A DNA stretch of 64,000 bases, taken from Mageeibacillus sp. (GTDB taxonomy: Bacteria; Bacillota; Clostridia; Saccharofermentanales; Saccharofermentanaceae). Shown here piece by piece: positions 12,023-27,336 of the stretch. Every line of letters starts with the position of its first letter. The stretch's first letter is position 1. The stretch is taken from NCBI GenBank assembly GCA_022484595.1, contig JAKVLB010000003.1, positions 124,001-188,000 of the forward strand. Direction: 5' to 3'. Position numbers and translations under genes: made by a program. The notes under the pieces were generated by a model. That model worked only from the letters and a program-made list of their open reading frames with translations. It searched no databases and was not told where the DNA came from.

Positions 12023-12093
12023 AATAATGTTCCTCCTTGAATAAAGATGTTTTTGAACCGTTTGTCTCTGTCTACGTTTATGCGCGTATAAGC

Positions 12094-12130: not shown

Positions 12131-12144
12131 TGCTTAAGTAATCT

Positions 12145-12242: not shown

Positions 12243-12247
12243 TGAAC

Positions 12248-12276
12248 ATCGTAGTTTAAAAGTCAGGATATGTCAA
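12248..12276 (-). promoter_or_regulatory. Promoter of the thi operon
   Basis: Minus-strand TTGACA (12271-12276), a 17-base spacer and TACGAT (12248-12253). Transcription would start at about 12241, exactly at the first stem of the TPP aptamer. Confidence 0.75.
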
Positions 12277-12302
12277 GCGGCAATGTCAGTGAAGGCAGCC
12301 GT

Positions 12303-13241
12303 CTATTCCTGATATGTGGCGTTGAGTTTGGCCAGAATGACCGGAAGCTCCGTATCAATGACATCGTTATCAAGCTGACAGGTTCCGGCGTTGGCGTGAC
12401 CGCCGCCACCGTAGCTCAGGCAAAGCGCTCCTATATCAGTTCTGTTCGCACGGTTTACAATGGATTTACCTATCATCACCGCAGTATTCTGTTTATGAAA
12501 GCCCCACGCCACATGGACGCTGATCTCAGCCTGCGGCCAAAGGGCATATACCATGAACCGGTTTCCGGTATAGATTATGTCCAAAGGACGTAAATCAATG
12601 ACAGCCACCTTGCCGACAATCTTTACGGTGTCACGAAGCTGAGCGACAAACTTCTCCTGCTGTTCAAAATACATGTCAACGCGTTCCCTGACATCCGGAA
12701 GCGCAAGAACTTCATCCACATTGTGATCTGTACAATAGCTGATAAGCTCCATCATCAGATCATAATTGGAAATGCGGAAATCGTGGAATCTTCCGAGACC
12801 GGTTCTCGCGTCCATAAGGAAATCCATAAGCACCCAGCCCGACGGATGCAATATCTCATCTACTGTAAAATCGGCGCAGTCACCCTTGTCAACCGCTTCG
12901 AGGATCTCCGGCGTAACCGTCCTGAACTTCTCTCTTCCGCCGTAGTAATTATAGACCACGCTCGCGGCTGATTTCGCGGTAGGTATGCAGACATATCTGC
13001 CCTTGAAGCTGTCAGGACTGTTGCGAACCAGCTCGCTCTCGTGATGGTCAAAAGCGATTCCGACTCTCGGATCAAACGGAAGATTTGTCGTAATATCATT
13101 ACCGGTAATATCAACTTTCCCGTCCTGAACATCCTTGGGATGGACAAACTTGATATCCTGAATCATATCAAGCTCCCGAAGAAGCATTGCACAGACCAGG
13201 CCATCGAAATCACTCCTGGTTACCAGACGCATTGTACCCAT
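12303..13241 (-). CDS. DHH family phosphoesterase
   Basis: A 312-residue hydrolase with the N-terminal SDFDG motif (RLVTRSDFDGLVCAMLL), the metal-binding DHH (IAFDHHESE near 75) and the C-terminal DHHA1-like GGGGHANAG motif. These define the DHH family, which includes exopolyphosphatases and oligoribonuclease/pApA hydrolases. The ATG at 13241 is used because AGGAGG lies nine bases upstream; the frame continues 14 codons further. It precedes the thi riboswitch as a separate unit. The real substrate (polyphosphate, pAp or a short nucleotide) cannot be told. Confidence 0.85.
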   Translation of the reverse strand: MGTMRLVTRSDFDGLVCAMLLRELDMIQDIKFVHPKDVQDGKVDITGNDITTNLPFDPRVGIAFDHHESELVRNSPDSFKGRYVCIPTAKSAASVVYNYYGGREKFRTVTPEILEAVDKGDCADFTVDEILHPSGWVLMDFLMDARTGLGRFHDFRISNYDLMMELISYCTDHNVDEVLALPDVRERVDMYFEQQEKFVAQLRDTVKIVGKVAVIDLRPLDIIYTGNRFMVYALWPQAEISVHVAWGFHKQNTAVMIGKSIVNRANRTDIGALCLSYGGGGHANAGTCQLDNDVIDTELPVILAKLNATYQE

Positions 13242-13317
13242 TGTTATGTCCTCCTGTTTCATTATCTGATTAAATACTAACATCTTCTCAAAAAGATAAA
13301 TAAAACAGTGTGTAAAT

Positions 13318-14049
13318 TTATGTTAACGGTATATTTGTCACGCAAACAGAACATAATGCGTCGCACAGCTCATCTTCACTATGTACGGTAAAATCCGGCC
13401 GGTACGACACACCGGAAATGTCTGAAGACGAGCCGCGTCTGTCGAACCAGATTGTATGCCAGCGTGCTCCCGCTGCGCCAATTATGTCATGCTTCATCGA
13501 GTCACCGACCATCCACAGATTCTCAGGTGTCAGTCCAAGTCTGTCTTCCATCATCTCGAAAATTCTGACATCCGGTTTGGTATACCCGACTTCACCGGCG
13601 ACGATAGTCCTGTCTCTGTCAACCCAGCGGTCGAGTCCGAGTCTGTCAAATTTGCTCCACTGGTGTCCGGCCTGACCGGCAGTAATTATTCCGAGAATGA
13701 CGTCATCGATGACTGAAATTCTGTCAAGTGTCGCGCTGAGAAGCGGCGACACCGCCATAGAAGACTGCATGGAGAGATACAGTTCGGCCGCGCGGTGTCC
13801 CGCGTTTATGTCACCGAGTCCGAACATCTCCATGACCGTCCCGTATCGCCAACTGTTGGATTCTACGGTCGTAATCTCACCGCGTTCCAGCCTGGCGAGA
13901 TTGCTGTCTGAGCAGCGGTAGAATTCGTCAACAAATCTGCGTCTCTGCTGTTCATCAAACGTTATGCCCAGCACTTCCCCGGCTGCGTCTGATATCAACT
14001 TCTGTCTATCATATAGAGTATCATCAATATCTAATACAATTCCTGTCAT
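13318..14049 (-). CDS. HAD family hydrolase
   Basis: A 243-residue haloacid-dehalogenase-type phosphatase. Motif I is DIDDTLYD at the N-terminus with the nucleophile and acid Asp pair, motif II lies in ILGIITAGQ, motif III Lys is in GEVGYTKPD, and motif IV is MVGDSMKHDIIGA. The helical cap between motifs I and II places it in subfamily I (YjjG or phosphoglycolate-phosphatase-like). The ATG at 14049 follows GGAGATAAATGT. It is on the same strand as the MFS gene upstream, 44 bases away, and may share its transcript. The substrate is unknown. Confidence 0.85.
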   Translation of the reverse strand: MTGIVLDIDDTLYDRQKLISDAAGEVLGITFDEQQRRRFVDEFYRCSDSNLARLERGEITTVESNSWRYGTVMEMFGLGDINAGHRAAELYLSMQSSMAVSPLLSATLDRISVIDDVILGIITAGQAGHQWSKFDRLGLDRWVDRDRTIVAGEVGYTKPDVRIFEMMEDRLGLTPENLWMVGDSMKHDIIGAAGARWHTIWFDRRGSSSDISGVSYRPDFTVHSEDELCDALCSVCVTNIPLT

Positions 14050-14093
14050 ACATTTATCTCCGTAATTGTCCGTCGGGATTTATCCCGGACACG

Positions 14094-15446
14094 TCACTCA
14101 AAATCTTCAAATGTCTCAAGGCCCTTTGGGGCATCTGCGCAGACATCTCCGTGGCGCACAAAAATCATTGTAATGAAGCTTGCAAATGCGAAAACCGCTG
14201 CATAAACAAACAAAATCCTGTAGCTGACGTTGCGCATAAGGAATCCGGTGAGAACAGGCGTCAAAACCTGACCGAGCATTGCCGCAGTGTAATACAGTCC
14301 GGTGTATTCACCCGATTCTGATCCCTTGCACATTTCGACGACCATCGGCAGAGAATTTACGCTTATCGCCGCCCAGGCCACACCGACCAAAGCAAAGACG
14401 ATATACATGAGCACACTGATATGATCGTTTGTCACTGTAAGAACTCCGCACAGAGCAAATGATACAGTGAGCAGGATTGTACCGAAGTATATTGATTTCT
14501 TGCGGCCTATGCGTGAGGCAAGAAGGCCGAGCGGCAAATATGACACAATCGCGCCGGCATTTGCAATAAGGAAGCAGAGTGAGGCGCCGCCTATTCCTTC
14601 GCCCATTATCCGGCTTACATAGGTTGTAAACCACGTGGTTACCGCGTTATAGCCCATGTACCAGAGCATTATAGATACCAGGAGGAAAATCATGGAGCGG
14701 CGGACTGATCCTGTAAGCGCACGTTTGCCTCCTGTCTTACTGTCTGACCTGCCTTCAGCATTCAGATCCCACTCGGGATGCTCTGCTTCTATGGAATCGT
14801 TGATTGCGGAGAGTTTGTTCTCGCGCACAAAGGCGAACATTATTCCTACGCAGATAACGATGAAGACAGACATGAAAATAAAGAGTGCGGAATAGTCAAC
14901 ATGTGAAAGACCCTGTGTCTTTGATTTCGGGTACATGATCGCGGCAAAGGCCAGGTATATTATTCCGCCGGCTGCGCCCATCAGATTGATAATCGCATTG
15001 CCGCGTGAACGAAGAGGCTTCGGAGTAATATCAGGCATAAGCGCCACCGCGGGGGTTCTGTAAACCGTCATTGTAAGAAGCAGCATTGCAAGAACCGCGA
15101 TAAAAGCAAACACACTGTAGAACGCGCCTGTCCTTCCGGCCGCGACACCGTTGTCAATCACCGGGATAAATGTGATAAGAACTGCTGCAATAACAGTTCC
15201 TGTTATAATGTACGGCATGCGCTTTCCGATTCTCGTATGAGTCCTGTCTGACAATCTGCCGAACACAGGCAGAAGAACAATCGCGAGGATGTTGTCGATT
15301 GCCATTATTCCTCCGGAAACCGTCTCATTAAAGTGGAAGGTGTTGGTAAGAAGCAGCGGAACGATATTATCGTAGAGCTGCCAGAACGCAATGATTGACA
15401 TAAATGCAAGACCGACCAGAAATGTATTCCTGTAGTTAAGTTTCAT
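14094..15446 (-). CDS. MFS transporter of the GPH/SLC45-like sugar carrier type
   Basis: A 450-residue polytopic protein with about 12 hydrophobic segments. After TM2 it has the loop FGRLSDRTHTRIGKRMPYI, the D-R-T-x-T-R-x-G-R/K-R-x-P pattern characteristic of sugar/H+ or sugar/Na+ carriers (GPH and SLC45 groups), and the mirrored GLLASRIGRKKSIYFG in the second half. The ATG at 15446 follows GAGGGG. It is divergent from the sensor-GGDEF gene, which carries a sugar-binding-protein-like sensor domain, so both may respond to the same ligand; that is inference. Confidence 0.8.
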   Translation of the reverse strand: MKLNYRNTFLVGLAFMSIIAFWQLYDNIVPLLLTNTFHFNETVSGGIMAIDNILAIVLLPVFGRLSDRTHTRIGKRMPYIITGTVIAAVLITFIPVIDNGVAAGRTGAFYSVFAFIAVLAMLLLTMTVYRTPAVALMPDITPKPLRSRGNAIINLMGAAGGIIYLAFAAIMYPKSKTQGLSHVDYSALFIFMSVFIVICVGIMFAFVRENKLSAINDSIEAEHPEWDLNAEGRSDSKTGGKRALTGSVRRSMIFLLVSIMLWYMGYNAVTTWFTTYVSRIMGEGIGGASLCFLIANAGAIVSYLPLGLLASRIGRKKSIYFGTILLTVSFALCGVLTVTNDHISVLMYIVFALVGVAWAAISVNSLPMVVEMCKGSESGEYTGLYYTAAMLGQVLTPVLTGFLMRNVSYRILFVYAAVFAFASFITMIFVRHGDVCADAPKGLETFEDFE

Positions 15447-15636
15447 AATTACCCCTCTTCAGTAACAGGCTATGTTAATTTCAGATTATAACATTTAGTA
15501 TGACTGACAGCACCTTCGCCCGAAAGGCAAAACATTCCGGCTTAAGCTGTTGTTGCATCTGTTAATATATAAATTGTTATTTTATAATTAATCATGACGC
15601 AACAGTTGTGTTGTAACCTTTATACGAGGTGATAAT

Positions 15637-17553
15637 ATGCGCAAAAGAATTGCCATTTTCGCGAACGGATACAGCATGGAGTTTCTGCAATCCATGCTTA
15701 ACGGCATTGAGCAGTCGGGATTCTACAACAACTATGATTACCTTGTTTTCCTGAGTCACACTTCTTATGACGACCCTGAAGAGATGAATGACGGCGAGTT
15801 TGCTATTTACAGGCTGCCGTATATTGAAGATTTTGACGGAGTCATTGTTTTTACCAACTGCCTTAATTCATGCGGCAGCGGCGTTGAGCTTGTGAAGCGC
15901 GCTGTTGACTGCGGGACTCCTGTCGTCAGCATAGGAATCAGAGTGGAAGGTGCCATTAATGTTGATATTGACAATACAACCGGAATACGTGAGCTGTGCG
16001 AACATCTGATTACGATGCACAATGTCAGGCACGCTGTGATCATAGGTGGCAAGGACGACCACCCCGAGAGCATCGTTCGCATTGATACATGCAGAACGGT
16101 TTTTCATGAACACGGGCTTGATATCAATGACAAGGATATCTTTTACGGCGATTGGGGAAATGTCAAGACTACCGTTATAACCGACAGTCTTGCGGCAAAT
16201 CCGGATGGTCTGCCGGATGCGATTATCTGCGCTAACGACATTATGGCACTGGCCTGCGCCACAGAGCTTGCAAGACTCAATATAAGGGTTCCTGAAGACG
16301 TCATTGTCACAGGCTATGATTCAATCATCCGCGGTCAGCTTTTCTGCCCTGTCTTAACTACGGTATCTTCGGATTATTCAACGATAGGACAAGAATGTAT
16401 TCAGTTATTCAACGATGCCGGCGACGGATACAGTATTTCGACAGATTTTAAAATTCCGTCAAAGCTTGTGCTCGGTGAGAGTTGCGGATGCTTTGAATCA
16501 AAACTTTTCGATACCAGGCGCAAGGAAAATGCCAGAGACACCTATTCACGGTATCTGGATCACCTGAAGCTCGAATCCAGCGAACGTACTCTTACTCAGC
16601 TGATAACCGATTCCACAGAATATGAGGGACTGAATAAAAGACTTATCGACTTCTATTCCGCAAACCGCGATATTTTCGGTGACGATTTCTTCATTGTCAT
16701 TCATAACAAGTATCTGGAAGATGTTATGTCTGATGATAATGCGGTTTTCGAAGACGGAGAACGCGGCAGGCTCAGTTCGATTGTTGCAATCAGCGAAGGA
16801 AAAGTGTGCGACAGACTCGATACAGACAGGCACAGGCTTATTCCTCTGTATGATCATGATTCCGGAACGAATCATATCTATTACCTTATGCCGCTTCATA
16901 ACGGCCGGTATAATTACGGCTACTGTGTAATATCTGACAAATCCAAGCTGATGCTCGGGCATATGGATCTGCACTCTAATCTTGAGAAACTTATGCTTGC
17001 ATTCAAGATTCAGCGGTCAAACATTCAGCTTCATATATATAACGAAAGTCTCAAGAGAATGTCACAGATTGATGCCATGACCGGTCTTTACAACCGCCTG
17101 GGCTATGAGAAGAAAGCTATTCCCATATACCACGAATGTGAGAGACTGAGACGGATGCTCATGGTTATGTTTATAGATATCAACCATATGAAGCTTATCA
17201 ATGACAGTTTCGGACATATAAGCGGCGACAGTGCCATCAGAGCCACGGCAAGCGCAATCATGGCCAATATCAAGCCTGACTGGATTGCAGTGCGTTTCGG
17301 CGGAGATGAATTTCTTATTATCGGCGGGATAACCGACGAGACCGAGGCTGAGGATTGCCAGAGTTCAATAGTAAGTTACATAAGCCGGATTAACCGGGAA
17401 GAGAACAATCCTTTTACTCTTTCTGTCAGCTCGGGCTTTATTCTGAGCGACAGGACCTACAAGAAGCCGCTTACGGAATATATCAAGGAAGCTGACAACC
17501 TTATGTATGTCACAAAGAGAAAGCTTCACAGCGAGAATGGTCACGCTTTTTGA
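15637..17553 (+). CDS. LacI/PurR-type ligand-binding domain fused to a GGDEF diguanylate cyclase
   Basis: A 638-residue protein, probably cytoplasmic since no signal peptide or membrane helix is visible. Residues 1-290 form a type I periplasmic-binding-like sensor as in LacI regulators (RKRIAIFANG, DFDGVIVFTN, VDIDNTTGIRELCEHL, DAIICANDIMALAC, VTGYDS), but without the N-terminal HTH. Residues 300-480 hold a linker, perhaps GAF-like, ending in a helix. The C-terminus is a cyclase domain: DAMTGLYNRLGYE, then FGGDEF at about 554-559 with an intact catalytic loop. No RxxD inhibitory site is seen before GGDEF. It would make cyclic di-GMP in response to a small ligand. The start follows GAGGTG. Confidence 0.9.
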   Translation: MRKRIAIFANGYSMEFLQSMLNGIEQSGFYNNYDYLVFLSHTSYDDPEEMNDGEFAIYRLPYIEDFDGVIVFTNCLNSCGSGVELVKRAVDCGTPVVSIGIRVEGAINVDIDNTTGIRELCEHLITMHNVRHAVIIGGKDDHPESIVRIDTCRTVFHEHGLDINDKDIFYGDWGNVKTTVITDSLAANPDGLPDAIICANDIMALACATELARLNIRVPEDVIVTGYDSIIRGQLFCPVLTTVSSDYSTIGQECIQLFNDAGDGYSISTDFKIPSKLVLGESCGCFESKLFDTRRKENARDTYSRYLDHLKLESSERTLTQLITDSTEYEGLNKRLIDFYSANRDIFGDDFFIVIHNKYLEDVMSDDNAVFEDGERGRLSSIVAISEGKVCDRLDTDRHRLIPLYDHDSGTNHIYYLMPLHNGRYNYGYCVISDKSKLMLGHMDLHSNLEKLMLAFKIQRSNIQLHIYNESLKRMSQIDAMTGLYNRLGYEKKAIPIYHECERLRRMLMVMFIDINHMKLINDSFGHISGDSAIRATASAIMANIKPDWIAVRFGGDEFLIIGGITDETEAEDCQSSIVSYISRINREENNPFTLSVSSGFILSDRTYKKPLTEYIKEADNLMYVTKRKLHSENGHAF

Positions 17554-17563
17554 AAAGCGGCTG

Positions 17564-18148
17564 TTACGCTGATAAACTCTTTATCACTTTGGCGGGAACA
17601 CCTGCAACCACGGTGTTATCAGGAACATCTTTCGTTACAACACTTCCTGCTGCAACAACAGCGTTCTCGCCGACAGTAACACCCGGAGTAATTGTAGCTC
17701 CCATACCAATCCACGCATTCTTCCTGATAGTGACCTTCCCGTATGTATATACTGTATGTCTCTGCGCAAAATCATGATTGATTGTCGCTATCCTGACTCC
17801 GGGCGCAAGCATAACACCATCCTCGAAAGTAATCCCTCCCGAAGCTGACAGTATTGCCGAATGATTAATGAAAACATTACTGCCAAAAGTCACACGGTTG
17901 CCGAAGTCACATATAAACGGTGTAAGAATTCTTACATCATCAAGCTTTCTTCCAAACAGCTCTTCTAAAAATCCAACATAAGCCGGGTCATCCGGTGATG
18001 TTGAATTTGCCTTGAAGCAAAGCGTTCTTGCCCTGATCATTTCATCGGCGGCTTCCTTAAAGTATTCTTCAGTTGCAGTTGTAGGACCGCCTTCATCCAT
18101 CAGTTTGTAAACATAGCCTTTATCATAATTCATACCTGTCACACCCAT
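17564..18148 (-). CDS. Sugar O-acetyltransferase (maltose acetyltransferase-like, left-handed beta-helix)
   Basis: A 194-residue hexapeptide-repeat acyltransferase. It has an N-terminal helical region, then the Lac/Mal transacetylase core FGSNVFINHSAILSASGGITFEDGVMLAPGV with the catalytic NHDF histidine region (IATINHDFA), then IGMGATITPGVTVGENAVVAAGSVVTKDVPDNTVVAGVPAK. It transfers acetyl from acetyl-CoA to a sugar or small acceptor. The start is uncertain: ATG at 18148 or at 18133; both overlap or touch the flavodoxin stop and neither has a strong ribosome site. It is last in the MerR-flavodoxin operon. Confidence 0.85.
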   Translation of the reverse strand: MGVTGMNYDKGYVYKLMDEGGPTTATEEYFKEAADEMIRARTLCFKANSTSPDDPAYVGFLEELFGRKLDDVRILTPFICDFGNRVTFGSNVFINHSAILSASGGITFEDGVMLAPGVRIATINHDFAQRHTVYTYGKVTIRKNAWIGMGATITPGVTVGENAVVAAGSVVTKDVPDNTVVAGVPAKVIKSLSA

Positions 18149-18636
18149 CTTTCAACCGAATCCATCGCCTCATCCGCCAGACTGCCTTTAATCGCAAGAC
18201 CTTTGGTAACCGTGGCTGCCGGAACTTCATTTGCAATATCACTTTCAGTACCCGAAAGTCCGCTGCCTTCATGGGTACAGAACGGATGAATCACTTTGCC
18301 TTCAAAGTTCGAACTATCCAGGAATGTGTAGACTGCCATCGGCATAGTTCCCCAATAGTTAGGATACCCAAGATAAATCTCATCATAACCGCTTAAATCA
18401 GGCAGTGCCTTGAGCTCCGGCCGTAAGTTCTCCTGACGGTCCTTCTTTGCCTGGGCTGTTGCAGTGCTGTAATCCGCGGCATATGGAATCTTCTGTTCAA
18501 TTCTGAACATATCTGCGCCCTTAATTCCGGCAATCATCCGCGCAACCTTCTCTGTATTGCCGACTTCAATATAACGGTAGCTTCCGTCGAAATAGTTCTC
18601 ATCTGCTCTTGAATAAAACGCAACTAATTTTTTCAT
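18139..18636 (-). CDS. Flavodoxin family protein
   Basis: A 165-residue FMN protein. The N-terminal strand and loop KLVAFYSRADENYFDGSYRYIEVGNTEKVARMI is the phosphate-binding region of the long-loop flavodoxin/NADPH-dependent reductase type. YDEIYLGYPNYWGTMPMAVYTFLDS is the flavin-stacking Y-P-x-Y/W block, and FCTHEGSGLSGTESDI is the third FMN loop. It lies 6 bases after merR and is followed by the acetyltransferase, so all three share the merR promoter. In the context of an aldehyde-type MerR regulon it probably supplies electrons for detoxifying reductions. Confidence 0.85.
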   Translation of the reverse strand: MKKLVAFYSRADENYFDGSYRYIEVGNTEKVARMIAGIKGADMFRIEQKIPYAADYSTATAQAKKDRQENLRPELKALPDLSGYDEIYLGYPNYWGTMPMAVYTFLDSSNFEGKVIHPFCTHEGSGLSGTESDIANEVPAATVTKGLAIKGSLADEAMDSVERWV

Positions 18637-18641
18637 ATTCT

Positions 18642-19055
18642 TTATCCTCTCTTCGTGTCCGTATTCCTGTCTTTATCTTTACCGTCCCAGTCGAGCCTGC
18701 CTGTAACAAGCGCATCCTCATATCTGTCAATCTTGAACGACAGCCTTTCCATAGTCTCTTCCACTGCTCTCTTCTGTTCCTCAAGAACAGTCATCTGTTC
18801 TCTCAACAGTTCAAGTCTTGCCGGAATCGTGTCATCTCCCTGCCTGAAAAGCTCCAGATACTCGATCATAACTTCCACAGGCAATCCGGCGCTTCTCATA
18901 CATTTGGCAAGATTAACCCATCTTATATCCTCTTCGCCGTAATTTCTTGTTCCACCGGCCGTTCTTGTTACTCTCGGAATCATTCCCACGCGCTCGTAGT
19001 AACGCAGGGTATCCTGTGACAGCCCCGTCATAAGGCTCACTTCATTTATCGTCAT
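18642..19055 (-). CDS. MerR family regulator of the AdhR/NmlR type
   Basis: A 137-residue regulator. The winged-helix head reads MTINEVSLMTGLSQDTLRYYERVGMIP with TAGGTRNYGEEDIRW, followed by a C-terminal coiled coil (about 75-120). It has a single cysteine in the middle region, NLAKCMRSAGLP. Counting from the ATG at 19055 it is residue 52, the same position as the thiol that senses aldehydes in Bacillus AdhR and NmlR relatives. I use the second ATG because GGAGGA touches the first one. Its own promoter carries the 19-base spacer and dyad typical of MerR activation. The signal is inferred to be a reactive aldehyde or similar electrophile. Confidence 0.85.
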   Translation of the reverse strand: MTINEVSLMTGLSQDTLRYYERVGMIPRVTRTAGGTRNYGEEDIRWVNLAKCMRSAGLPVEVMIEYLELFRQGDDTIPARLELLREQMTVLEEQKRAVEETMERLSFKIDRYEDALVTGRLDWDGKDKDRNTDTKRG

Positions 19056-19084
19056 AAACATTCCTCCGGTTGCTTTATGTCTGA

Positions 19085-19115
19085 ATTATACAATCTGGAG
19101 TTAACTCCGGGTCAA
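19085..19115 (-). promoter_or_regulatory. MerR-class promoter of the merR-flavodoxin-acetyltransferase operon
   Basis: Minus strand: -35 TTGACC (19110-19115), 19-base spacer, -10 TATAAT (19085-19090). The spacer contains the dyad CCGGAGTTAACTCCAG (19095-19110). A 19-base spacer with a central inverted repeat is diagnostic of MerR-activated promoters. One mismatch breaks the symmetry compared with the second copy at 20319-20349. Confidence 0.85.
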
Positions 19116-19156
19116 GCTTTGCAGGTTCTCATAGTAAGCGTCACTCGGTATTTTTC

Positions 19157-20293
19157 TCACATTCCTATCATTGCCGAGAAATCCTTCATGACCTCGGATA
19201 TCTTTATCTGCTGAGGGCACACCTTCTCGCAGCTCCTGCACCCTATACAGTTTGCCGGCCTCTTTGAAGGCTCCATACTGCCGACAGCCATAGGCGCGAG
19301 AAAACCGCCGCCGGCCAGCTTATGTTCATTATATAAAGCTATAAGCTCCGGAATCGGAAGCTTCTTCGGACAATGACTCGTGCAATAGTGACACGCCGTG
19401 CAGGGAAGACCGCCGCGCTTTACTTCCTCATCCATAAGATATACAAGCCTGTCAAACTCTTCACGGTTCAGCGGCTTATCCACACTCCATGTATCAATGT
19501 TGGCCTTAAGCTGCTCCATGTCAGACATTCCGGAAAGAACCATTCTTACCTGGGGCAATGCCTGCAAAAACCTGAACGCCCACTCCGTAACAGTTTCATC
19601 CGGACGCATCTTCCGCAGTTCACCGGTCATTTCATCCGGCTCGTTGCAGAGTTTTCCTCCGTGCAGAGGTTCCATAACCCAGACCGGAAGCTGCCTTTCC
19701 TCACAAAGCGCGACCTTCTCATCACATTTCTGAAAATGCCAGTCCATATAATTGAGCTGAAGCTGGCAGAACTCCATATGCTCTCCGTACGCTGAATCAA
19801 GAAATCGCTTCAGAACCGAGGATGATCCGTGACACGAGAAACCCAGATGTCTGATTCTGCCAAGTCTCTTCTGTTCAAGAAAGTACTCAAGTATACCGAA
19901 CTCAGGGTCAAGGTAATCGTCGATGTTCCCTTCATAGACGTTATGAATCAGGTAGAAATCGAAGTAATCCGTCTGAAGCTTTACGAGCTGTTTCTCGAAA
20001 ATCTCTCTTGCTTTCGGCATATTTGAATTGTCATAGCCCGGAAACTTTGTTGCCAGACAGAAACTGTCGCGCGGATATCCGTGTAGATATTTTCCTGCGA
20101 CAAGCTCCGAAGCGCCGCTGTGATATCCCCATGCTGTGTCGAAATAATTAATCCCGTGTCTGTACGCGTATTCTATCATCTCTGCGGCAGCCTTCTCATC
20201 TACTGCGGCATCGTTGCCGTTGATAACAGGCAGTCTCATCATTCCGAGTCCGAGCCCGGACAGCTTCTCGCCTTTGAAATCTCTGTAAATCAT
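19157..20293 (-). CDS. Aldo/keto reductase with a C-terminal ferredoxin-like domain
   Basis: A 378-residue fusion. Residues 1-270 are an NAD(P)H aldo/keto reductase barrel with the tetrad region NYFDTAWGYHSG (Asp and Tyr), AGKYLHG, and IRHLGFSCHGS. The C-terminal part has two cysteine clusters, CTACHYCTSHCP (about 298-309) and CIGCRSCEKVCP (about 350), for two [4Fe-4S] centres, an arrangement common in anaerobe AKRs. The ATG at 20293 follows GGGGA. Its promoter carries the same MerR dyad as the neighbouring operon, so it belongs to the AdhR-like regulon and probably reduces aldehydes. Confidence 0.9.
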   Translation of the reverse strand: MIYRDFKGEKLSGLGLGMMRLPVINGNDAAVDEKAAAEMIEYAYRHGINYFDTAWGYHSGASELVAGKYLHGYPRDSFCLATKFPGYDNSNMPKAREIFEKQLVKLQTDYFDFYLIHNVYEGNIDDYLDPEFGILEYFLEQKRLGRIRHLGFSCHGSSSVLKRFLDSAYGEHMEFCQLQLNYMDWHFQKCDEKVALCEERQLPVWVMEPLHGGKLCNEPDEMTGELRKMRPDETVTEWAFRFLQALPQVRMVLSGMSDMEQLKANIDTWSVDKPLNREEFDRLVYLMDEEVKRGGLPCTACHYCTSHCPKKLPIPELIALYNEHKLAGGGFLAPMAVGSMEPSKRPANCIGCRSCEKVCPQQIKISEVMKDFSAMIGM

Positions 20294-20318
20294 AACAGTA
20301 TCCCCTGACTTTTTTCTT

Positions 20319-20349
20319 ATTATACTGCCTGGAGTTAACTCCAGGTCAA
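20319..20349 (-). promoter_or_regulatory. MerR-class promoter of the aldo/keto reductase gene
   Basis: Minus strand: -35 TTGACC (20344-20349), 19-base spacer, -10 TATAAT (20319-20324), with the perfect 18-base palindrome CCTGGAGTTAACTCCAGG (20329-20346) in the spacer. It matches the merR promoter site and resembles published AdhR/NmlR boxes. Confidence 0.88.
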
Positions 20350-20380
20350 ATACAATTTTCGAAAAATCAGAACAAATATG

Positions 20381-20806
20381 TCACCGGATTTTTTTCTGCA
20401 TCCAGATATGCGGAAGTCCCTCTTCATCATCCGACGGGCCTGTCTCCATGAACCCAAGCGTGCTGTAGAACTTCACTACCCTGCATTGCGCATGAAGCAT
20501 CAGAACTTTCGCACCCATCTTCCTGACTGTGTCCTCGGCTTCCAAGAGCATCTCAGAGCCTAATCCCAACCCCCGGTATTCTTTTATGACGGCTATTCTT
20601 CCGAATATAAAGCATCCTTTGTCCGCCCCTTCGTAAACGCGGCACGTGGCAACAGGTTCATCCGCTTCGTTATACATCACAAAATGAACTGCCTTGTCAT
20701 CCTTATCGTCAAACTCGTTGCGAAAAGACTGTTCATCAACAAACACCTTCGTTCGAATATATCTCGCATCGTCGGTAAGATATGTGTATTTCCTTATGTC
20801 AGACAT
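20381..20806 (-). CDS. GNAT family N-acetyltransferase
   Basis: A 141-residue acetyltransferase of the ElaA/YjcF type: RTKVFVDEQSFRNEFDDKDDKAVHFVMYN (N-terminal strands), then FGRIAVIKEYRGLGLGSEMLLEAED (acetyl-CoA pyrophosphate loop R-x-x-G-x-G), and LHAQCRVVKFYSTLGF. The ATG at 20806 follows a weak GAAAGAG. It lies upstream of the aldo/keto reductase promoter and is a separate unit. The substrate is unknown. Confidence 0.88.
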   Translation of the reverse strand: MSDIRKYTYLTDDARYIRTKVFVDEQSFRNEFDDKDDKAVHFVMYNEADEPVATCRVYEGADKGCFIFGRIAVIKEYRGLGLGSEMLLEAEDTVRKMGAKVLMLHAQCRVVKFYSTLGFMETGPSDDEEGLPHIWMQKKIR

Positions 20807-20840
20807 ATATAATCTCTTTCTGTAATGCCTTTATCGATGA

Positions 20841-21707
20841 TTACAAAGCACCCGTTGCTTCTTCCGGCTTCTCCCTGTCCCTCCTATAAAGCAGACAATA
20901 CGCACCGAAGAAAGTCAGAAGCCCTACGGCTGCGACATAGGCTTCCAACGCCCATGAAGAGATGTCTATAACCTTGAAAATACTCAGTGCCGCCACGGTG
21001 TCCATGACAGTATGAAGCAGAATTGCCAGAGGATACAGCCAGAATTTTTTATCTCTTGCCGCATAGAACACGATGATCGACGCTCCGACATGGAAAAGAA
21101 AAGCAAATACTCTCTCGACAATCGATATTGCAAAAACATTAAACGAAAATGACGTAACTGTATAAGCAAGACTGTCGATTGAAGATTGCAGCTGTCCGGA
21201 AACTTCAGATGCGGAAGCAGTCATCATTGTCTGGAATGTTCCGTTATTGATCATTAATCCGAAAGCGATATATTCTATAAACGTAGTTCCCAGAATAAAC
21301 ATCACTTCGAATCCGCCGTGCCCTATTCCGTATGAGATAGCGGTCTCCCTGTTTCTGCGTTTTCTCAGCACGGTCCTGAATGCAACCAGACGCCCGGTCT
21401 CTTCAAACACGCCCGGAAAGAGTCCTGCGACGATAGAAAGCAATATAGGGTTCGCACTCAGAAATATGCTCACCGGATTATCGGGAAGTCCCATCGCCGT
21501 CGGGAACACTATCACGTTCTGGATAATTTTCTCAAGTATGACCGCGAAAACCATAAATGTCGCTGCACCAATCAATATGGTGGTGAAACGTTCCTTCTTC
21601 CTAACTTTCCAGATTATCGCTATCAGCAGCGGCACCAGTATAAAAAGTGCAGCCCCTGCGAACATCAGCAGAAATTGATCCGTACCCACTTTCTCTGTTC
21701 CCGTCAT
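20841..21707 (-). CDS. YhfC family intramembrane metalloprotease
   Basis: A 288-residue polytopic protein with about eight transmembrane segments. Putative metal and catalytic motifs lie in membrane segments: FPGVFEETGRLVAF (Glu-Glu-x-x-Arg), ISYGIGHGGFEV (His and Glu), RVFAFLFHVGASI, and ILLHTVMDT (His and Asp). These match the YhfC family, distant relatives of CPBP proteases. The ATG at 21707 follows AAAGGAG. It lies downstream of the SMR gene by 75 bases and may be cotranscribed. Its substrate is unknown. Confidence 0.8.
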   Translation of the reverse strand: MTGTEKVGTDQFLLMFAGAALFILVPLLIAIIWKVRKKERFTTILIGAATFMVFAVILEKIIQNVIVFPTAMGLPDNPVSIFLSANPILLSIVAGLFPGVFEETGRLVAFRTVLRKRRNRETAISYGIGHGGFEVMFILGTTFIEYIAFGLMINNGTFQTMMTASASEVSGQLQSSIDSLAYTVTSFSFNVFAISIVERVFAFLFHVGASIIVFYAARDKKFWLYPLAILLHTVMDTVAALSIFKVIDISSWALEAYVAAVGLLTFFGAYCLLYRRDREKPEEATGAL

Positions 21708-21782
21708 AATATTATTCTCCTTTTATTTATTTTCCCTGTTATCCGCACCGGAATCATAGATTTCCATGCAGAAACTTTTTAC

Positions 21783-22094
21783 TTAGAATATTTTTAATCC
21801 GACAATACCGCATACAATCAGCACTATGCATATTATCTGTGCTGCATTCAGTGTCTCCTTATAAATTAATATGCCCAGCACCGATGTTCCGACAATCCCA
21901 AAACCGGTCCACATCGCATAGGCTGTTCCCAACGGAAGTTTTTTTAATGCAAGTGACAGAAAAACTGCACTGAGAACATAAAAGATAAGTGTTGTAATAC
22001 TTGGAACAACCTTTGTGAATCCATTTGATAACTTCATGAAATATGCCCATGTAATCTCTGATATACCTGCCAGAAGCAACATAATCCACTGCAT
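21783..22094 (-). CDS. Small multidrug resistance (SMR) family transporter
   Basis: A 103-residue four-helix protein with the family glutamate in TM1 (AGISEITWAYFMKLSNGFT), LGTAYAMWTGFGIVGT in TM3 and YKETLNAAQIICIVLIVCGIVGLK in TM4. SMR proteins of this type export quaternary cations or guanidinium (Gdx) as antiparallel dimers. The ATG at 22094 follows GGAGGA; the longer frame starts inside that site. The leader upstream is about 100 bases long with an inverted repeat (CCATACC and its complement), but I could not match it to a known guanidine riboswitch class. Confidence 0.85.
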   Translation of the reverse strand: MQWIMLLLAGISEITWAYFMKLSNGFTKVVPSITTLIFYVLSAVFLSLALKKLPLGTAYAMWTGFGIVGTSVLGILIYKETLNAAQIICIVLIVCGIVGLKIF

Positions 22095-22207
22095 ACTTTT
22101 CCTCCGCAAAAAAAGAACTCAGGACATCCATACCTTCAAAGGCCTACTGGTATGGTTCCGAAGCTCTGTTCTTTCTCTGCCCGGCAGCAGAAGTTTAATT
22201 CGATATA

Positions 22208-22236
22208 ATCATAACATATTTCAAACGCCGTTTGAA
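22208..22236 (-). promoter_or_regulatory. Candidate promoter overlapping a 17-base palindrome, upstream of the SMR gene
   Basis: The perfect palindrome TTCAAACGCCGTTTGAA (22220-22236, 8+1+8) overlaps a minus-strand promoter with -35 TTCAAA (22231-22236), 17-base spacer and -10 TATGAT (22208-22213). A dimeric repressor, for example of the TetR type, could bind it; no such gene is adjacent. The stretch 22110-22346 otherwise holds the SMR leader and the end of the metF unit. Confidence 0.5.
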
Positions 22237-22346
22237 TTCATTTCCCCGGTTCTCGATTCTATCGCCGGCTGCAGGTGACACTGTAAAATTTTCATTTCTA
22301 AGGAAAGTTCAGAACAGGTTTCCTGTTTCCACATTATCTTCCACAA

Positions 22347-23207
22347 TTAAACTATATTTTTAATTCCGTCACAGATACGCTTCACCGCAACAGGATTATT
22401 CATGGTATAGATATGAATTCCGTCGCAGCCTGAGACAAGAAGATCTATGATCTGGCTGATTGCGTAATATAAGCCTGCATCAAATAACGCATCAGGATTC
22501 TCTTCATACTTTTCGATGATCTTCCGGAACTTATCAGGCAGCTTTGCTCCGCATGTGGTGACCATCCGCTTTATTGTTCTCGCCGAAAGGCATGGCATTA
22601 TCCCGGGGGTAACAGGTACTTGTATGCCTGCTATCCGTGCATCTTCCACAAATGAATAGAAATCTTCATTATCAAAGAAAAGCTGAGACATAAGCACTTC
22701 TGCTCCGGCATCAACTTTAGTTTTGAGATTCCTTATCTCGCTGATCCTGTTCTCTGAATCCGGGTGGTTCTCAGGATAACAGGCTCCGGCAATACAAAAG
22801 TTCGTACGTGGTCTGATATATTCAATCAGATCAGAAGCATGACTGAATACTCCCTTCGGCGGAGCCTTTGGATTGTAGTCCCCTCTCAGTGCAAGAACAT
22901 TTTCAATTCCGCTGTCGGCAAGTTCGCGGCAGAAATCATCAATTTCATTTCTGTTATAACAAAGGCATGTAAGGTGCGCGACAGGCTCAACTCCATATTT
23001 TTCCTTTATATGACGGCAGATAGCGATCGTTCCGTTATTGTTTGAGCTGCCTCCTGCTCCAAACGTAACGCTGATGAAGTCGGGTTTGAGCTCACAAAGC
23101 AGTTCGAGTGTTGCATCGATATTAATCAGTTCTTCATCATGCTTTGGCGGAAAAATCTCAAACGACAGTACTCTTCCGGGTTTCTTGTAAATTTCAGTCA
23201 GTTTCAT
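22347..23207 (-). CDS. metF: Methylenetetrahydrofolate reductase
   Basis: FAD TIM-barrel enzyme of 286 residues that makes 5-methyl-THF, the methyl donor for MetE. Seen are LSFEIFPPKHDEE (catalytic Glu region), FISVTFGAGGSS, VAHLTCLCYNR, ALRGDYNP, and MSQLFFDNEDFYSF. It overlaps metE by 14 bases with its own GAGGAG, so the two steps of methionine synthesis are translationally coupled. Expression should follow the LysR-controlled metE promoter. Confidence 0.95.
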   Translation of the reverse strand: MKLTEIYKKPGRVLSFEIFPPKHDEELINIDATLELLCELKPDFISVTFGAGGSSNNNGTIAICRHIKEKYGVEPVAHLTCLCYNRNEIDDFCRELADSGIENVLALRGDYNPKAPPKGVFSHASDLIEYIRPRTNFCIAGACYPENHPDSENRISEIRNLKTKVDAGAEVLMSQLFFDNEDFYSFVEDARIAGIQVPVTPGIMPCLSARTIKRMVTTCGAKLPDKFRKIIEKYEENPDALFDAGLYYAISQIIDLLVSGCDGIHIYTMNNPVAVKRICDGIKNIV

Positions 23208-25464
23208 ACCGACTCCTCATAACAGATGCGGCTTTTACAAGATTATTCAGACTTCTCTCCGCTTCCGCTTCACCTCTGGTCTTAAGACCACAGTCCGGAT
23301 TCACCCAGAGCTTATGTACATCCACCTTTTCTGTCATCTTTTTAAGTGCCTCAACTATTTCGTCAACGGACGGTACTCTCGGCGAATGAATATCATAAAC
23401 ACCAGGTCCAACCTCAGTCCTGAAATTGTTTTCCTTCAGCGAATCCAATATCATAAGGTCTGAGCGAGAAGCTTCAAATGTTATTACATCAGCATCCATA
23501 TTGTCTATTGCCGGGATTATATCCGTAAACTCACTGTAACACATGTGCGTATGTATCTGTGTACTGGGCTTTACTCCGCTATGAACAAGTTTGAAAGCAG
23601 GGATTGCCCAATCCAGATATTCCGTATACCAGTCGCTTTTTCTCAGAGGAAGCTTTTCGCGTAAAGCAGCCTCGTCAATCTGAATGATCCGGATGCCGTT
23701 TGACTCAAGATCCAGCACTTCATCACGGATAGCAAGAGCAATCTGCTGTGTTTGTTCCTTCAGGCTGATATCCTCTCTCGGAAAAGACCAGTTCAAAATT
23801 GTCACCGGACCTGTCAGCATTCCTTTTACAGGCTTGTCTGTAAGGCTCTGAGCATACACCGACCATTCAACCGTAATCGGCTTTTTTCTTGACACATCAC
23901 CCCAGATCAACGGCGGTTTCACACAGCGTGTCCCGTATGACTGCACCCATGCTTTTTCGGTGAAAAGATATCCTTCCAGATTCGCTCCAAAATACTCTAC
24001 CATGTCGTTACGTTCGTATTCACCATGAACAAGTACGTCAAGTCCGATTTCCTCCTGGAAACGGATACATCTTTTTATCTTTTCCCTGTTGAATTTCTCG
24101 TACTGTTCTTCCGTCACTGTACCCTTGCTAAGTCCGGTACGGTTTGCCTTGACATCCTTTGTCTGAGGAAATGAACCGATCGTCGTTGTCGGAAAAACAG
24201 GAAGTGAGAACTCTGCTTTCTGGATTTTTTCTCTCTCCTCAAATAATGGTTTTCTCGTATAGTCCTCTTCTTTTATACTTTTTACGCGTTTTATGACTGC
24301 CTCATCAGCCTGATAGCGGTTACCGTCGAAAATGCGGCGATTTCTGTCAAGAGCTTCATCGTCCGCGCCTTCCGACAGTCCTTTCAGTTCGCGCAGTTCA
24401 TCCAATTTTTCGTATGCGTAAGCAAAATGACGCGCGATACCCTCCGAAAGCCTGCTCTCGTTCTCAAGCGTATAAGGAACGTGAAGCAGTGAACAGGACG
24501 TAGATATCACCGTATCGATGCCCGCATCTTTCAGGCTTTTGAGAATCTTCAGCGTTGAATCATAATGATTTCTCCAGATGTTTTTTCCATTTACGACTCC
24601 GGCGAAAAGTTTTCGGTCTTCAGGAAAACCGTTCTTCATTATAAGATCAGCCGTCTTTCTTCCCTCAACAAAATCAAGCCCGATTCCGTTAAAAGGCAGC
24701 GCCGCCACTGCATCATATATGTCTCTGATGTCTCCGAAATAGGTCTGCAACAGGATCTTCACGTTTCCTTTTCCGGAAAGAATTTTCTTATAAAGGCCTT
24801 CGAAAAATGAAATATCATCTGTAGAAAGGTCCCGCACAAGATACGGCTCGTCAAACTGTACCCACTCAGCGCCAAGGTCTCCAAACTTCTTTATCAGCGC
24901 CGTGTAAACAGACGCAGCTTCATCCATATAATCATTTCTGTCTTTTGAACCGACAAATCTCGCAAGGTTAAGGAAAGTAAACGGGCCGCAGATTACCGGC
25001 TTTGTGATAATTCCCTCATTCTTTGCTTCCGAAAACTCATCAAGAGGCTTCGTTCCAACAAGCTTCATATGAGCGTCGTCTTCGATTTCCGGAACTATAT
25101 AATGATAATTTGTATTGAACCATTTCTTCATGGCAAGAGCCTTAACATCGCCCTTTTCCCCTTGATATCCGTGTGCGGCTGCGAAATATTTATCCAGAAC
25201 CGAGACATCAAGCTGTCTGTACCTGTCCGGAATTAAGTCAAATAGAAATGCAGTATCAAGTACACCATCATAAAAAGAGAAGTCTCCGGAAGGAATAAGG
25301 TCGATGCCGGAAGCCTTCTGTTTTTTCCATGCATCAATACGGATTGCTCTGGCAGTATCACACAACTCCTCTTCCGTGATCTCGCTTCTGAAATACCTTT
25401 CAGTCGCAAATTTGAGTTCTCGCAATGATCCGACTCTGGGAAATCCGATAACCGATGTTTTCAT
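23194..25464 (-). CDS. metE: Cobalamin-independent methionine synthase
   Basis: 5-methyltetrahydropteroyltriglutamate-homocysteine methyltransferase of about 756 residues, the usual length. Both barrels are present: the N-terminal one (VIGFPRVGSLRELKFATERYF) and the catalytic one beginning FPTTTIGSFPQTKDVKANR. Zinc ligands are visible in HTHMCYSEF and NPDCGLKTR near the C-terminus, with IIQIDEAALRE before them. I choose the second ATG (25464), nine bases after AAGGAG; the first ATG is too close. It is upstream of and overlaps metF. Regulation is probably by the LysR protein encoded just upstream. Confidence 0.95.
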   Translation of the reverse strand: MKTSVIGFPRVGSLRELKFATERYFRSEITEEELCDTARAIRIDAWKKQKASGIDLIPSGDFSFYDGVLDTAFLFDLIPDRYRQLDVSVLDKYFAAAHGYQGEKGDVKALAMKKWFNTNYHYIVPEIEDDAHMKLVGTKPLDEFSEAKNEGIITKPVICGPFTFLNLARFVGSKDRNDYMDEAASVYTALIKKFGDLGAEWVQFDEPYLVRDLSTDDISFFEGLYKKILSGKGNVKILLQTYFGDIRDIYDAVAALPFNGIGLDFVEGRKTADLIMKNGFPEDRKLFAGVVNGKNIWRNHYDSTLKILKSLKDAGIDTVISTSCSLLHVPYTLENESRLSEGIARHFAYAYEKLDELRELKGLSEGADDEALDRNRRIFDGNRYQADEAVIKRVKSIKEEDYTRKPLFEEREKIQKAEFSLPVFPTTTIGSFPQTKDVKANRTGLSKGTVTEEQYEKFNREKIKRCIRFQEEIGLDVLVHGEYERNDMVEYFGANLEGYLFTEKAWVQSYGTRCVKPPLIWGDVSRKKPITVEWSVYAQSLTDKPVKGMLTGPVTILNWSFPREDISLKEQTQQIALAIRDEVLDLESNGIRIIQIDEAALREKLPLRKSDWYTEYLDWAIPAFKLVHSGVKPSTQIHTHMCYSEFTDIIPAIDNMDADVITFEASRSDLMILDSLKENNFRTEVGPGVYDIHSPRVPSVDEIVEALKKMTEKVDVHKLWVNPDCGLKTRGEAEAERSLNNLVKAASVMRSRYETD

Positions 25465-25493
25465 ATAAATCATTCTCCTTATCGCAAGTAAAT

Positions 25494-25520
25494 AAAAGAG
25501 AGGTGTCTTACCTCTCTTTT
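25494..25520 (-). terminator. Hairpin with U-tract between the LysR gene and metE
   Basis: A perfect 11-base stem (AAAAGAGAGGT and complement, 5-base loop) is followed on the minus strand by TTTTATTT. Because the Met-box-like site and -10 element lie upstream of it and metE begins 30 bases downstream, it sits in the metE leader. It may end the LysR transcript, attenuate metE, or both. Confidence 0.6.
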
Positions 25521-25559
25521 AAATTGTACTCACCGCATCATGAACGTAAAATATATCAA

Positions 25560-25588
25560 ATTATAGGTTATCGATAGCTTCAGGCTAT
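25560..25588 (-). promoter_or_regulatory. LysR-type Met-box and promoter of metE-metF
   Basis: The dyad ATAGC-N5-GCTAT (25574-25588) has the T-N11-A form of LysR sites and resembles the streptococcal MetR/MtaR box (TATAGTTTNAAACTATA). A minus-strand -10 TATAAT lies at 25560-25565 with no -35 consensus, as expected for an activator-dependent promoter. The LysR gene is immediately upstream. Confidence 0.6.
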
Positions 25589-25598
25589 ATCAAAAAAT

Positions 25599-26504
25599 TC
25601 ATTCAGAAGCCGCGTGTTTTTTTAACGCCTCGACATAAATTGTACCCAGTCTGCTTCGGTGCGATTTTCTGTGAGTAATGTATCCGATATGCATGTCACC
25701 TTCCTTCTTCAGCGGAACCGCGATAATATCCGGTCCGTTCAATACCGGATCAATCACACCGCTTGAGACGGTATATCCGTTCAGTCCGATAAGCAGATTA
25801 AAAAGCGTTGCTCTGTCTCTTACCCGGATGTTCTTCGGTCTGTTCACAGTACTGAATATCTCCTCGGAATAATAAAAAGCATTATGCTCTCCCTGCTCGA
25901 ACAGCAGATACGGGTAAGGTGACAATTCTTCCATCTTCACGGATTTCCTGTCTGCAAGCGGATGAGTCTTGCTGATGAAGATATGAGGCTTTGCTGTAAA
26001 GAGCTCTGTAAATTCGAGTTCCTTTGCCTTAAGAATCTTTTTTATGACCGTCTCGTTAAAGTCATTAATGTATAAGACCCCGATCTCACTTTTCAGCGAT
26101 GCCACATCTTCGATGATCTCATAAGTCTGCGTCTCGCGCAGGGAGAAGTCATATTCGTCTCTGCCGTATTCTTCAATCAGATCAACTAAAGCGTTGACTG
26201 CAAAAGAATAATGCTGCGTGGAAACACAGAAAGACTGTTCTCCTCCGCCCTTATTCAGATATTTCTCTTCAAGCATATCTGCCTGTTCAAGCACCTGACG
26301 GGCATAAGCAAGAAACTGTTCGCCTTCCTTTGACACCTTGATGCCCTTGTTCGTCCGGTCGAAAATGGTGATTCCCACTTCCTTTTCCAGCTCATGGACA
26401 GCTTTTGTCAGACTGGGCTGAGCGATATATAATTCATTGGCTGCGTCTGTAATGGTTCCTTTTTTTGCCACCATCACCGCGTACCGGAGCTGATTCAATG
26501 TCAT
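25599..26504 (-). CDS. LysR family regulator, probable MetR/MtaR-like activator of metEF
   Basis: A 301-residue LysR protein. The HTH is TLNQLRYAVMVAKKGTITDAANELYIAQPSLTKAVHELEKEVGITIFDRTNKGIKVSKEGEQFL, the standard family start, so I use the ATG at 26504 after GAGGA rather than an upstream extension of 28 codons. The C-terminal effector domain follows from about residue 90. Its stop lies 10 bases from a dyad in front of metE, and gene order LysR-metE-metF on one strand supports local control of methionine synthesis. Homocysteine is the usual co-inducer of MetR; here that is inference. Confidence 0.85.
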   Translation of the reverse strand: MTLNQLRYAVMVAKKGTITDAANELYIAQPSLTKAVHELEKEVGITIFDRTNKGIKVSKEGEQFLAYARQVLEQADMLEEKYLNKGGGEQSFCVSTQHYSFAVNALVDLIEEYGRDEYDFSLRETQTYEIIEDVASLKSEIGVLYINDFNETVIKKILKAKELEFTELFTAKPHIFISKTHPLADRKSVKMEELSPYPYLLFEQGEHNAFYYSEEIFSTVNRPKNIRVRDRATLFNLLIGLNGYTVSSGVIDPVLNGPDIIAVPLKKEGDMHIGYITHRKSHRSRLGTIYVEALKKHAASE

Positions 26505-26727
26505 AATTTCTACTTCCTCGCCAAAAGCTCTATTTCCGCGCCTTACCGGTGCTAACATCTGATTGTCAGCCACAACCCGATCAGGCAACTCAATCCTATC
26601 ACATATAGTTTTTCATTACATATAAAGCGTAAATTATATATAATAAAAGACGGTTGCTGACAGGTGATTGCAACTGGCTATGTTTTTACAAACCAATCAA
26701 CAAACCGCTATTTTTCGGAGTTTAATT

Positions 26728-27336
26728 ATGTATTTATTTTTAACAGAATTTTCTAGCAGCATCGTGCAAATTCTTCTTTTTACTTTAATTCCTTTAATTT
26801 GGTGGTTGATTACAGATAAAAAGAATATCAGTTTCTTTAGGTGGATTGGATTAAAGAGAATCAAAAGTGCACATGAAAATAAGACGGCAGCATGGATTGC
26901 CGGTGCTGCGATTGCTTTTGTTATTCTTGGGGCATTTGATCTTTATATGCTGAAAGATGTGCAGCTGGCAACCTCAAAGTTTTCGGGATTAGGTGTCAAA
27001 GCGATTCCGGCTGTTATAGTGTATGCAGTATTTAATACGTCAATGCCAGAAGAGATTTTGTTTAGAGGCTTTCTTTTAAAAAGACTGAGTAATAAGTTTG
27101 GATTTACAGTATCGAATATCATACAAGCAGCTGTATTTGGACTGATTCACGGAATTCTGTTATTCAATACAGGAATCAATAAAGCAGTCCCCATAGTTAT
27201 TTTCACTGGTCTGATTGGATGGACAATGGGGTATATTAACGAGAAGAAAGCTGATGGTTCAATTCTCCCGGGTTGGATAATCCATGCAGCTTCGAATTTA
27301 TTTTCCGGTATTTGTGCGGCCTTTTTACTTATCTAA
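26728..27336 (+). CDS. CPBP family intramembrane glutamic endopeptidase
   Basis: A 202-residue polytopic protein with the Abi/CPBP motifs MPEEILFRGFLLKRL (motif 1, Glu-Glu-x-x-x-Arg, near 106-112), FGLIHGIL (motif 2 His) and WIIHAASNLFSG (motif 3 His and Asn). The ATG at 26728 follows CGGAG; an upstream frame of 20 codons has no ribosome site. The coding sequence is clearly richer in A/T than the genes to its left, a sign of recent acquisition, and it marks the beginning of the accessory region. Roles of relatives range from prenyl-protein processing to bacteriocin immunity. Confidence 0.85.
   Translation: MYLFLTEFSSSIVQILLFTLIPLIWWLITDKKNISFFRWIGLKRIKSAHENKTAAWIAGAAIAFVILGAFDLYMLKDVQLATSKFSGLGVKAIPAVIVYAVFNTSMPEEILFRGFLLKRLSNKFGFTVSNIIQAAVFGLIHGILLFNTGINKAVPIVIFTGLIGWTMGYINEKKADGSILPGWIIHAASNLFSGICAAFLLI

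Follow-up and report, generated by a model that had tools for sequence, protein, structure and literature searches.

A two-promoter NmlR/AdhR-type MerR regulon with a probable reductive output in Mageeibacillus sp. and the recurrence of its operator across Bacillota

Two promoters in a 64,000-nucleotide stretch of the Mageeibacillus sp. genome (hereafter the window) carry the same operator and lie beside a single gene for an NmlR/AdhR-like MerR regulator. The operator, the promoter spacing and a regulator cysteine are conserved in relatives, and genes for reductases and flavodoxins are enriched behind the operator in other genomes. We consider it probable that the window contains a horizontally shared regulon of the NmlR/AdhR type belonging to a bacterium presumed from its kinship to be anaerobic, in which Cys52 of the regulator would serve as an electrophile switch for two promoters with a reductive output. 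This kind of switch is already known, and what is added here is a regulon of two sites, a broad class of loci defined by the operator and the reductive output. As a regulon, this reductive variant of the known NmlR/AdhR system is well supported; its inducer we infer.

Both promoters are on the minus strand. The promoter of the operon encoding the regulator (merR), a flavodoxin and an acetyltransferase occupies positions 19085-19115, with TTGACC as the -35 box (19115-19110) and TATAAT as the -10 box (19090-19085), and the promoter of the gene for an Fe-S aldo/keto reductase (AKR) occupies positions 20319-20349, with the same two boxes at 20349-20344 and 20324-20319. Read on the minus strand, the spacers are CGGAGTTAACTCCAGATTG for merR (19115 to 19085) and TGGAGTTAACTCCAGGCAG for AKR (20349 to 20319), each 19 bases long, which agrees with the architecture given for both promoters in the preliminary description. 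Within the spacer of both lies a 16-base dyad, CTGGAGTTAACTCCAG, which is perfect in the AKR promoter (20329-20344) and has one mismatch in the merR promoter (19095-19110). With up to three mismatches allowed, the dyad matched twice in the 64-kb window and none of 100 shuffles gave two matches, which bears out the earlier report of a dyad at both promoters, imperfect at merR. According to PMC5045206, MerR promoter spacers measure 19-20 bp and are effectively shortened by DNA distortion. A dyad within such a spacer was one of our criteria for the NmlR/AdhR clade, and both window sites have this arrangement.

The whole-genome search that had been proposed for the dyad with 19-base spacing was carried out on the source genome (1.92 Mb in 12 contigs, 99.13% complete). 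With up to three mismatches, the dyad together with a 19-bp promoter was found at the two window sites only, with no third composite operator-promoter in the 1.92 Mb, and a reversed control pattern gave no match. The dyad alone occurs with two mismatches at one further place (C2:188231), where the promoter pattern has no match. This place falls within a 494-aa open frame that, judged by its look, we took for a mobilisation (relaxase-type) protein.

The regulator is a MerR-family protein of 137 aa (18642-19055, minus strand). Its start at 19055 is favoured because a GGAGG lies 7 nt upstream of it, against 1 nt for the alternative upstream ATG at 19061. Numbered from this start, the sole cysteine of the protein is Cys52 (codon 18902-18900), so that the single cysteine previously placed at residue 52 is correct given the start at 19055. 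The N-terminal helix-turn-helix is of MerR type (PF13411, 58 bits against a cut-off of 21.6). A genome search with this model (E ≤ 0.001; 12 of 14 control genomes positive), which can miss regulators outside that model, found one MerR_1 protein, the one encoded beside the operators. This protein is therefore the only candidate regulator seen, and both promoters are very probably run by it. The locus can thus be called a compact regulon, as it was from the first, with one NmlR/AdhR-like MerR candidate, two matched promoters and no third in the genome. Of the 15 NCBIfam models listed for the regulator, NmlR is by a wide margin the best (127.8 bits), with CueR at 45.6 bits. The NmlR score lies under the equivalog cut-off of 175 bits, which counts against our best explanation, although the model seems narrowly drawn, since the cut-off was reached in 0 of 14 control genomes, B. 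subtilis among them, and nine match below it.

The cysteine at the sensing position of the clade (Cys52 in AdhR, Cys54 in H. influenzae NmlR) is conserved, being kept in 111 of 114 MerR relatives and replaced by Arg in three, where the count is over non-duplicate stretches no shorter than 96 residues (139 with duplicates), includes the window's own copy (in L126) and takes in 12 stretches that contain a stop. PDB relatives of the regulator are 3gp4, which is closest by sequence, 3gpv and 5e01 (HI_0186), and the residue aligned to Cys52 is Cys in 5e01 and 3gpv and Gln in 3gp4. We count this Gln, together with the three Arg, against the best explanation. A review claims absolute conservation of the sensing cysteine in the clade and describes a C52A AdhR of B. 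subtilis with no adhA induction by formaldehyde (PMC4776306). The loci of the three relatives with Arg (L197, L158 and L188) carry operators, hinting that these regulators may respond to a different signal or be non-sensing paralogues. It is conceivable, if quite improbable, that the cassette serves one specific metabolite (e.g. a dietary or fermentation carbonyl), with MerR as a ligand-type sensor and Cys52 as a structural residue. Such a role would suit the lack of the cysteine in 3gp4, the mixing of target sets between genomes described below and the presence of a co-directional O-acetyltransferase with no obvious part in detoxification, but few residues are better conserved than Cys52 (111/114), 137 aa leave little space for a separate ligand-binding domain and the targets are enzymes of a broad carbonyl kind.

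The operator-promoter recurs in relatives. Our merR-first set consisted of 87 loci, namely 80 named loci (the best 80 of 413 relatives) and seven whole-genome loci; L008 and L041 among them are apparently one contig, and L010 and L011 gave an identical site. The operator-promoter was present in 76 of the 87, with up to five mismatches and anywhere in the locus. When the -10 box was left free, the 80 named loci (again the best 80 of 413) yielded 64 distinct dyad cores that had TTGA at a fixed distance, and 16 of the loci had none. A TANNNT box stood at spacing 19 in 63 of these 64 cores, whereas the two next best spacings had such a box in 14 and 12, and no dyad core of that kind occurred on the opposite strand of the 80 loci. 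Given this near-constant spacing and the empty opposite strand, we regard the element as a genuine promoter of MerR type whose long spacer is fixed.

A scan of 393 genomes of the class that started from the operator and allowed up to three mismatches found 65 sites, spread over 44 genomes, and no site for the reversed pattern. That the two dyads of the window are a coincidence, or a repeat element with no regulatory meaning, has nothing in its favour beyond the small number of sites (two); the same composite element stands ahead of homologous genes in dozens of genomes while reversed controls are zero, and at the level of sequence this reading is refuted and in our judgement practically untenable. 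The operator and the gene set are not special to the source genome and recur across the class. The class defined by the operator is mostly Bacillota, with a few records labelled Fusobacteriota, Bacteroidota or Thermoplasmatota. Among 35 genomes of the genus (G000-G034), the six whose operator match is exact are the same six that have the regulator at E ≤ 1e-30, a co-occurrence that is not independent evidence because operator and regulator are linked. G005 has only a 48-residue piece of the regulator. In G030, which is 99% complete, an operator-like promoter with three mismatches (L226, about 5498-5528) precedes cyclophilin-like and Fe-ADH genes. No match to an NmlR-type regulator was found in G030, and an operator without a regulator counts against the best explanation.

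The AKR, merR, flavodoxin and acetyltransferase genes of the window are co-directional and served by the two promoters. The AKR (378 aa; 19157-20293, minus strand) combines an aldo/keto reductase domain (PF00248, 111.1 bits) with a C-terminal 2x[4Fe-4S] ferredoxin-like domain (Fer4_9, 37.5 bits), in which an eight-Cys pattern for two clusters spans residues 298-359. In an alignment, its D, Y, K and H match active-site residues of 1ynp, a tetrad that we take to be the AKR active site. The flavodoxin (Flavodoxin_4, PF12682, 84 bits; 165 aa; 18139-18636, minus strand) has 3klb, 4j8p and 4ici as PDB relatives, and its frame is overlapped by 10 bp by that of a hexapeptide-repeat O-acetyltransferase (194 aa; 17564-18148, minus strand), for which maltose O-acetyltransferase is the best NCBIfam model (123.6 bits, cut-off 314).

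A Zn-type (MDR) AdhC/AdhA dehydrogenase, the target in the canonical regulon, is lacking here. The Zn-type ADH_N domain (PF08240) had no match in the genome at E ≤ 0.001, with 13 of 14 control genomes positive, and since no ADH_N protein was found we take the canonical target to be absent. The genome does have three Fe-ADH matches, none of which has the operator, because the genome contains only two operator sites. The earlier proposal that the system works instead of an alcohol dehydrogenase therefore stands for the Zn type. With no ADH_N, Fe-ADHs that lack the operator and an Fe-S AKR with aligned active-site residues, a reductive answer to carbonyls is our best guess.

Among known systems, the AdhR (YraB) regulon of Bacillus subtilis, in which AdhR activates adhA (an AdhC homologue), yraC (carboxymuconolactone decarboxylase, CMD) and yraA, is similar in several respects (PMC4776306). 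Its regulator is of the MerR family with Cys52, its target yraC is of the CMD family that is also found behind the operator in relatives, and the over-long 19-20 bp spacer is that of MerR promoters generally (PMC5045206); this likeness is drawn from published descriptions. Unlike the AdhR regulon, the window system has no ADH_N, and its outputs are the Fe-S AKR, the flavodoxin and the acetyltransferase. In Neisseria and Haemophilus influenzae, adhC-estD adjoins and diverges from nmlR, horizontal transfer of nmlR-adhC-estD is reported, and the account of NmlR/AdhR as carbonyl sensors is coupled to thiol-dependent enzymes of AdhC type (PMC4776306). The likeness there lies in NmlR as the best NCBIfam match, in the Cys of the HI_0186 structure 5e01 at the Cys52 position and in horizontal transfer, whereas the window has co-directional genes, two promoters and no AdhC. 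NmlR regulons have been computed in Lactobacillales (PMC3616900) and NmlR homologues in Clostridium are on record (PMC4776306). These offer a computed Gram-positive NmlR regulon for comparison; the accessible text gives no Clostridium operator or targets, and an overlap of targets is possible.

For the genes behind the operator in other genomes, the operator-first surroundings comprised the 65 scan sites, less the two in the window and a single site from each of G001, G006 and G013 (three that were already in the merR-first set), plus five genus sites. Genes were labelled by BLAST against references taken mostly from merR-linked loci. ORFs were called mechanically, which left some chains shortened or missing; the first labelling was partly loose (in L229, for instance, it accepted four 'flavodoxins', the longest of 743 aa) and some few chains are near-duplicates. 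A strict recount used stricter labels, excluded the window and counted identical proteins once. By p-values that are uncorrected over about ten families, for families picked after the merR-linked loci had been viewed and from related loci that are not independent, AKR genes were enriched in operator-led chains relative to other ORFs of the same loci (21/147 vs 10/372, p = 3e-6; strict 18/143 vs 7/359, p = 5e-6), as were genes for flavodoxins (16 vs 7 among the same 147 and 372 ORFs, p = 3e-5; strict 11 vs 6, p = 0.002) and Fe-ADH (7 vs 2, p = 0.003; strict 5 vs 1, p = 0.008). Strict labels gave weak enrichment of DUF362 (p = 0.046) and alpha/beta hydrolase (p = 0.025). In the operator-first set, DXS-like genes (4 vs 2, p = 0.06 under both labellings), FMN-reductase genes (p = 0.36; strict p = 0.07) and the hexapeptide transferase (p = 0.06; strict 1 vs 2, p = 1.0) were not significantly enriched. 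CMD stood at 1 vs 1 under strict labels, the coverage rule of which is unfair to single CMD proteins because the CMD reference is a CMD-cupin fusion.

The first genes of 65 chains (distinct from the 65 scan sites, these are the chains with a gene among 73 pattern sites in the fetched loci and the window) were merR in 22, AKR in 11, flavodoxin in six, CMD/cupin, DUF362 and FMN reductase in three each, Fe-ADH and DXS-like in two each, hexapeptide transferase in one and others in 12. Under strict labels they were merR in 18, AKR in 11, flavodoxin in five, FMN reductase in three, Fe-ADH, DXS-like and DUF362 in two each, CMD/cupin in one and others in 21 of the 65. Ten of the unlabelled chain genes proved by Pfam to encode two SDRs, a glyoxalase, a CMD protein, a cyclophilin-like protein, two MFS proteins, CbiM and an AAA protein, with one having no match. 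The target set is mixed (MFS, CbiM, AAA and cyclophilin-like proteins; 21 of 65 first genes unlabelled), which speaks against the best explanation. Cyclophilin-like (PF18050) proteins are encoded in operator-led chains of L226, L227, L183 and L231.

The two sets together give 128 distinct operator sites that lead a chain, and in counts over these sites, where chains of neighbouring sites can overlap, merR is present in 84 chains, at least one of AKR, Fe-ADH, DXS-like, flavodoxin, FMN reductase or CMD in 82, and an AKR, Fe-ADH or DXS-like gene in 64. Judging from the genes that the same operator precedes in other genomes, a role in the response to carbonyls or electrophiles is likely. One could instead suppose, and we think this rather unlikely, that the regulator uses Cys52 to sense a redox or disulfide signal (oxidants, HOCl, quinones, diamide, oxygen exposure) and not aldehydes, with the reductases, flavodoxin and CMD/AhpD-like proteins serving general redox repair. 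Flavodoxin, FMN reductase and CMD genes do recur behind the operator; against this, AKR, Fe-ADH or DXS-like genes occur in those 64 of 128 chains, and SDR and glyoxalase genes are also found there.

Behind the operators of L223 lie genes for a DkgA-like AKR (282.3 bits, cut-off 425) and an Fe-ADH. YqhC of Escherichia coli is an AraC-type regulator of yqhD-dkgA, likewise an Fe-ADH and an AKR acting against short aldehydes, under an unrelated switch. A DXS-like enzyme of about 584 aa (L113:5392-7158; NCBIfam PRK12315, 934 bits, cut-off 510) is encoded behind an NmlR-type merR in 18 of the 87 loci (best 80 of 413 relatives plus seven), and such a gene occurs in the chains of 20 of the 128 operator sites. 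DXS under an electrophile-type switch is unexpected. We also considered an electron chain from flavodoxin to Fe-S AKR, the two having been described as used together. Flavodoxin was present in 5 of 25 Fe-S-AKR chains and in 26 of 105 chains without Fe-S AKR (p = 0.80), and with strict labels and no duplicates in 5/25 and 24/103 (p = 1.0). There is no sign of such a coupling and we rejected it.

Under the electrophile-switch reading, a single MerR-family dimer would sit on the dyad in the over-long 19-bp spacer and both promoters would be kept poorly active. Upon reaction of Cys52 with a carbonyl or other thiol-reactive electrophile, MerR would untwist the DNA, and RNA polymerase could then use the -35 and -10 boxes. 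One promoter would supply the Fe-S AKR and the other the regulator itself, the flavodoxin and the hexapeptide acetyltransferase; detoxification would be reductive, from aldehyde to alcohol, in place of a thiol-dependent Zn-ADH. In this scheme we infer the binding, the activation by distortion, the cysteine sensing, the inducer and the substrates. The preliminary interpretation is partly supported, and the observation on which it was built is confirmed.

A wider reading is tentative, and we would give it a little under an even chance. It holds that a carbonyl-defence regulon is widespread in mostly anaerobic Bacillota, with one NmlR-type switch, an operator-promoter conserved as TTGACYTGGAGTTAACTCCAR-TATAAT-like and a swappable output, either reductive or condensing, that would replace the thiol-dependent AdhC route, all carried on a horizontally spreading cassette. 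The swappable output is proposed to include Fe-S AKR, other AKRs, Fe-ADH, flavodoxin, CMD proteins and the DXS paralogue, and in the boldest form of this reading the DXS-like enzyme would remove aldehydes by condensation with pyruvate. No description of a carbonyl-defence regulon with such a target set was found in the open-access literature searched; as this covers open-access literature alone, novelty is not proven. An NmlR/AdhR-type switch here governs reductases, and the two-promoter regulon is small enough for complete testing. The operator gives a precise handle on carbonyl-response genes, the DXS paralogue included, in many Bacillota for which metagenomes are the main source.

The cassette appears to have arrived by horizontal transfer. 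In a merR tree of 102 rows (the window and stretches without a stop, own copy removed), which has few columns for its number of rows and an unsettled bootstrap, the window groups with Lachnospiraceae, Erysipelotrichaceae, others and a single congener (G013) in a clade of 13 rows (99/95), and the congeners G001, G006, G008, G017, G072 and G080 are in a separate clade (9 rows, 100/99). Vertical inheritance of the cassette within the genus is not the simplest account, the window merR standing apart from these six congeners. The closest AKR found was that of L060, a Holdemanella MAG (71% identity), where the order is operator-AKR-merR-EamA-flavodoxin and the -35 box starts 59 bp upstream of the AKR gene; the AKR of L086 is also 71% identical to that of the window and has an operator 459 bp upstream. 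The AKRs of G012, G013, G024, G069 and G077 are 55-57% identical to the window's and have no operator within the about 1.2-1.5 kb scanned upstream (best 8-10 mismatches). It is less likely that a new operator captured an AKR already resident in the genome, given 71% identity to operator-bearing AKRs against 55-57% to the operator-less AKRs of congeners. It is therefore probable that the AKR module and the merR module arrived together.

The window has several other features. A gene encoding a LacI-type sugar-binding sensor domain fused to GGDEF (15637-17553, plus strand) is convergent with the merR operon. Adjacent genes for methylenetetrahydrofolate reductase (PF02219) and cobalamin-independent methionine synthase (PF01717, PF08267) occupy 22347-25473 on the minus strand. 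In the region searched for such elements (12000-28000), a TPP riboswitch (RF00059) was found at 12137-12248 on the minus strand, with 55.4 bits against a gathering threshold of 54.3.
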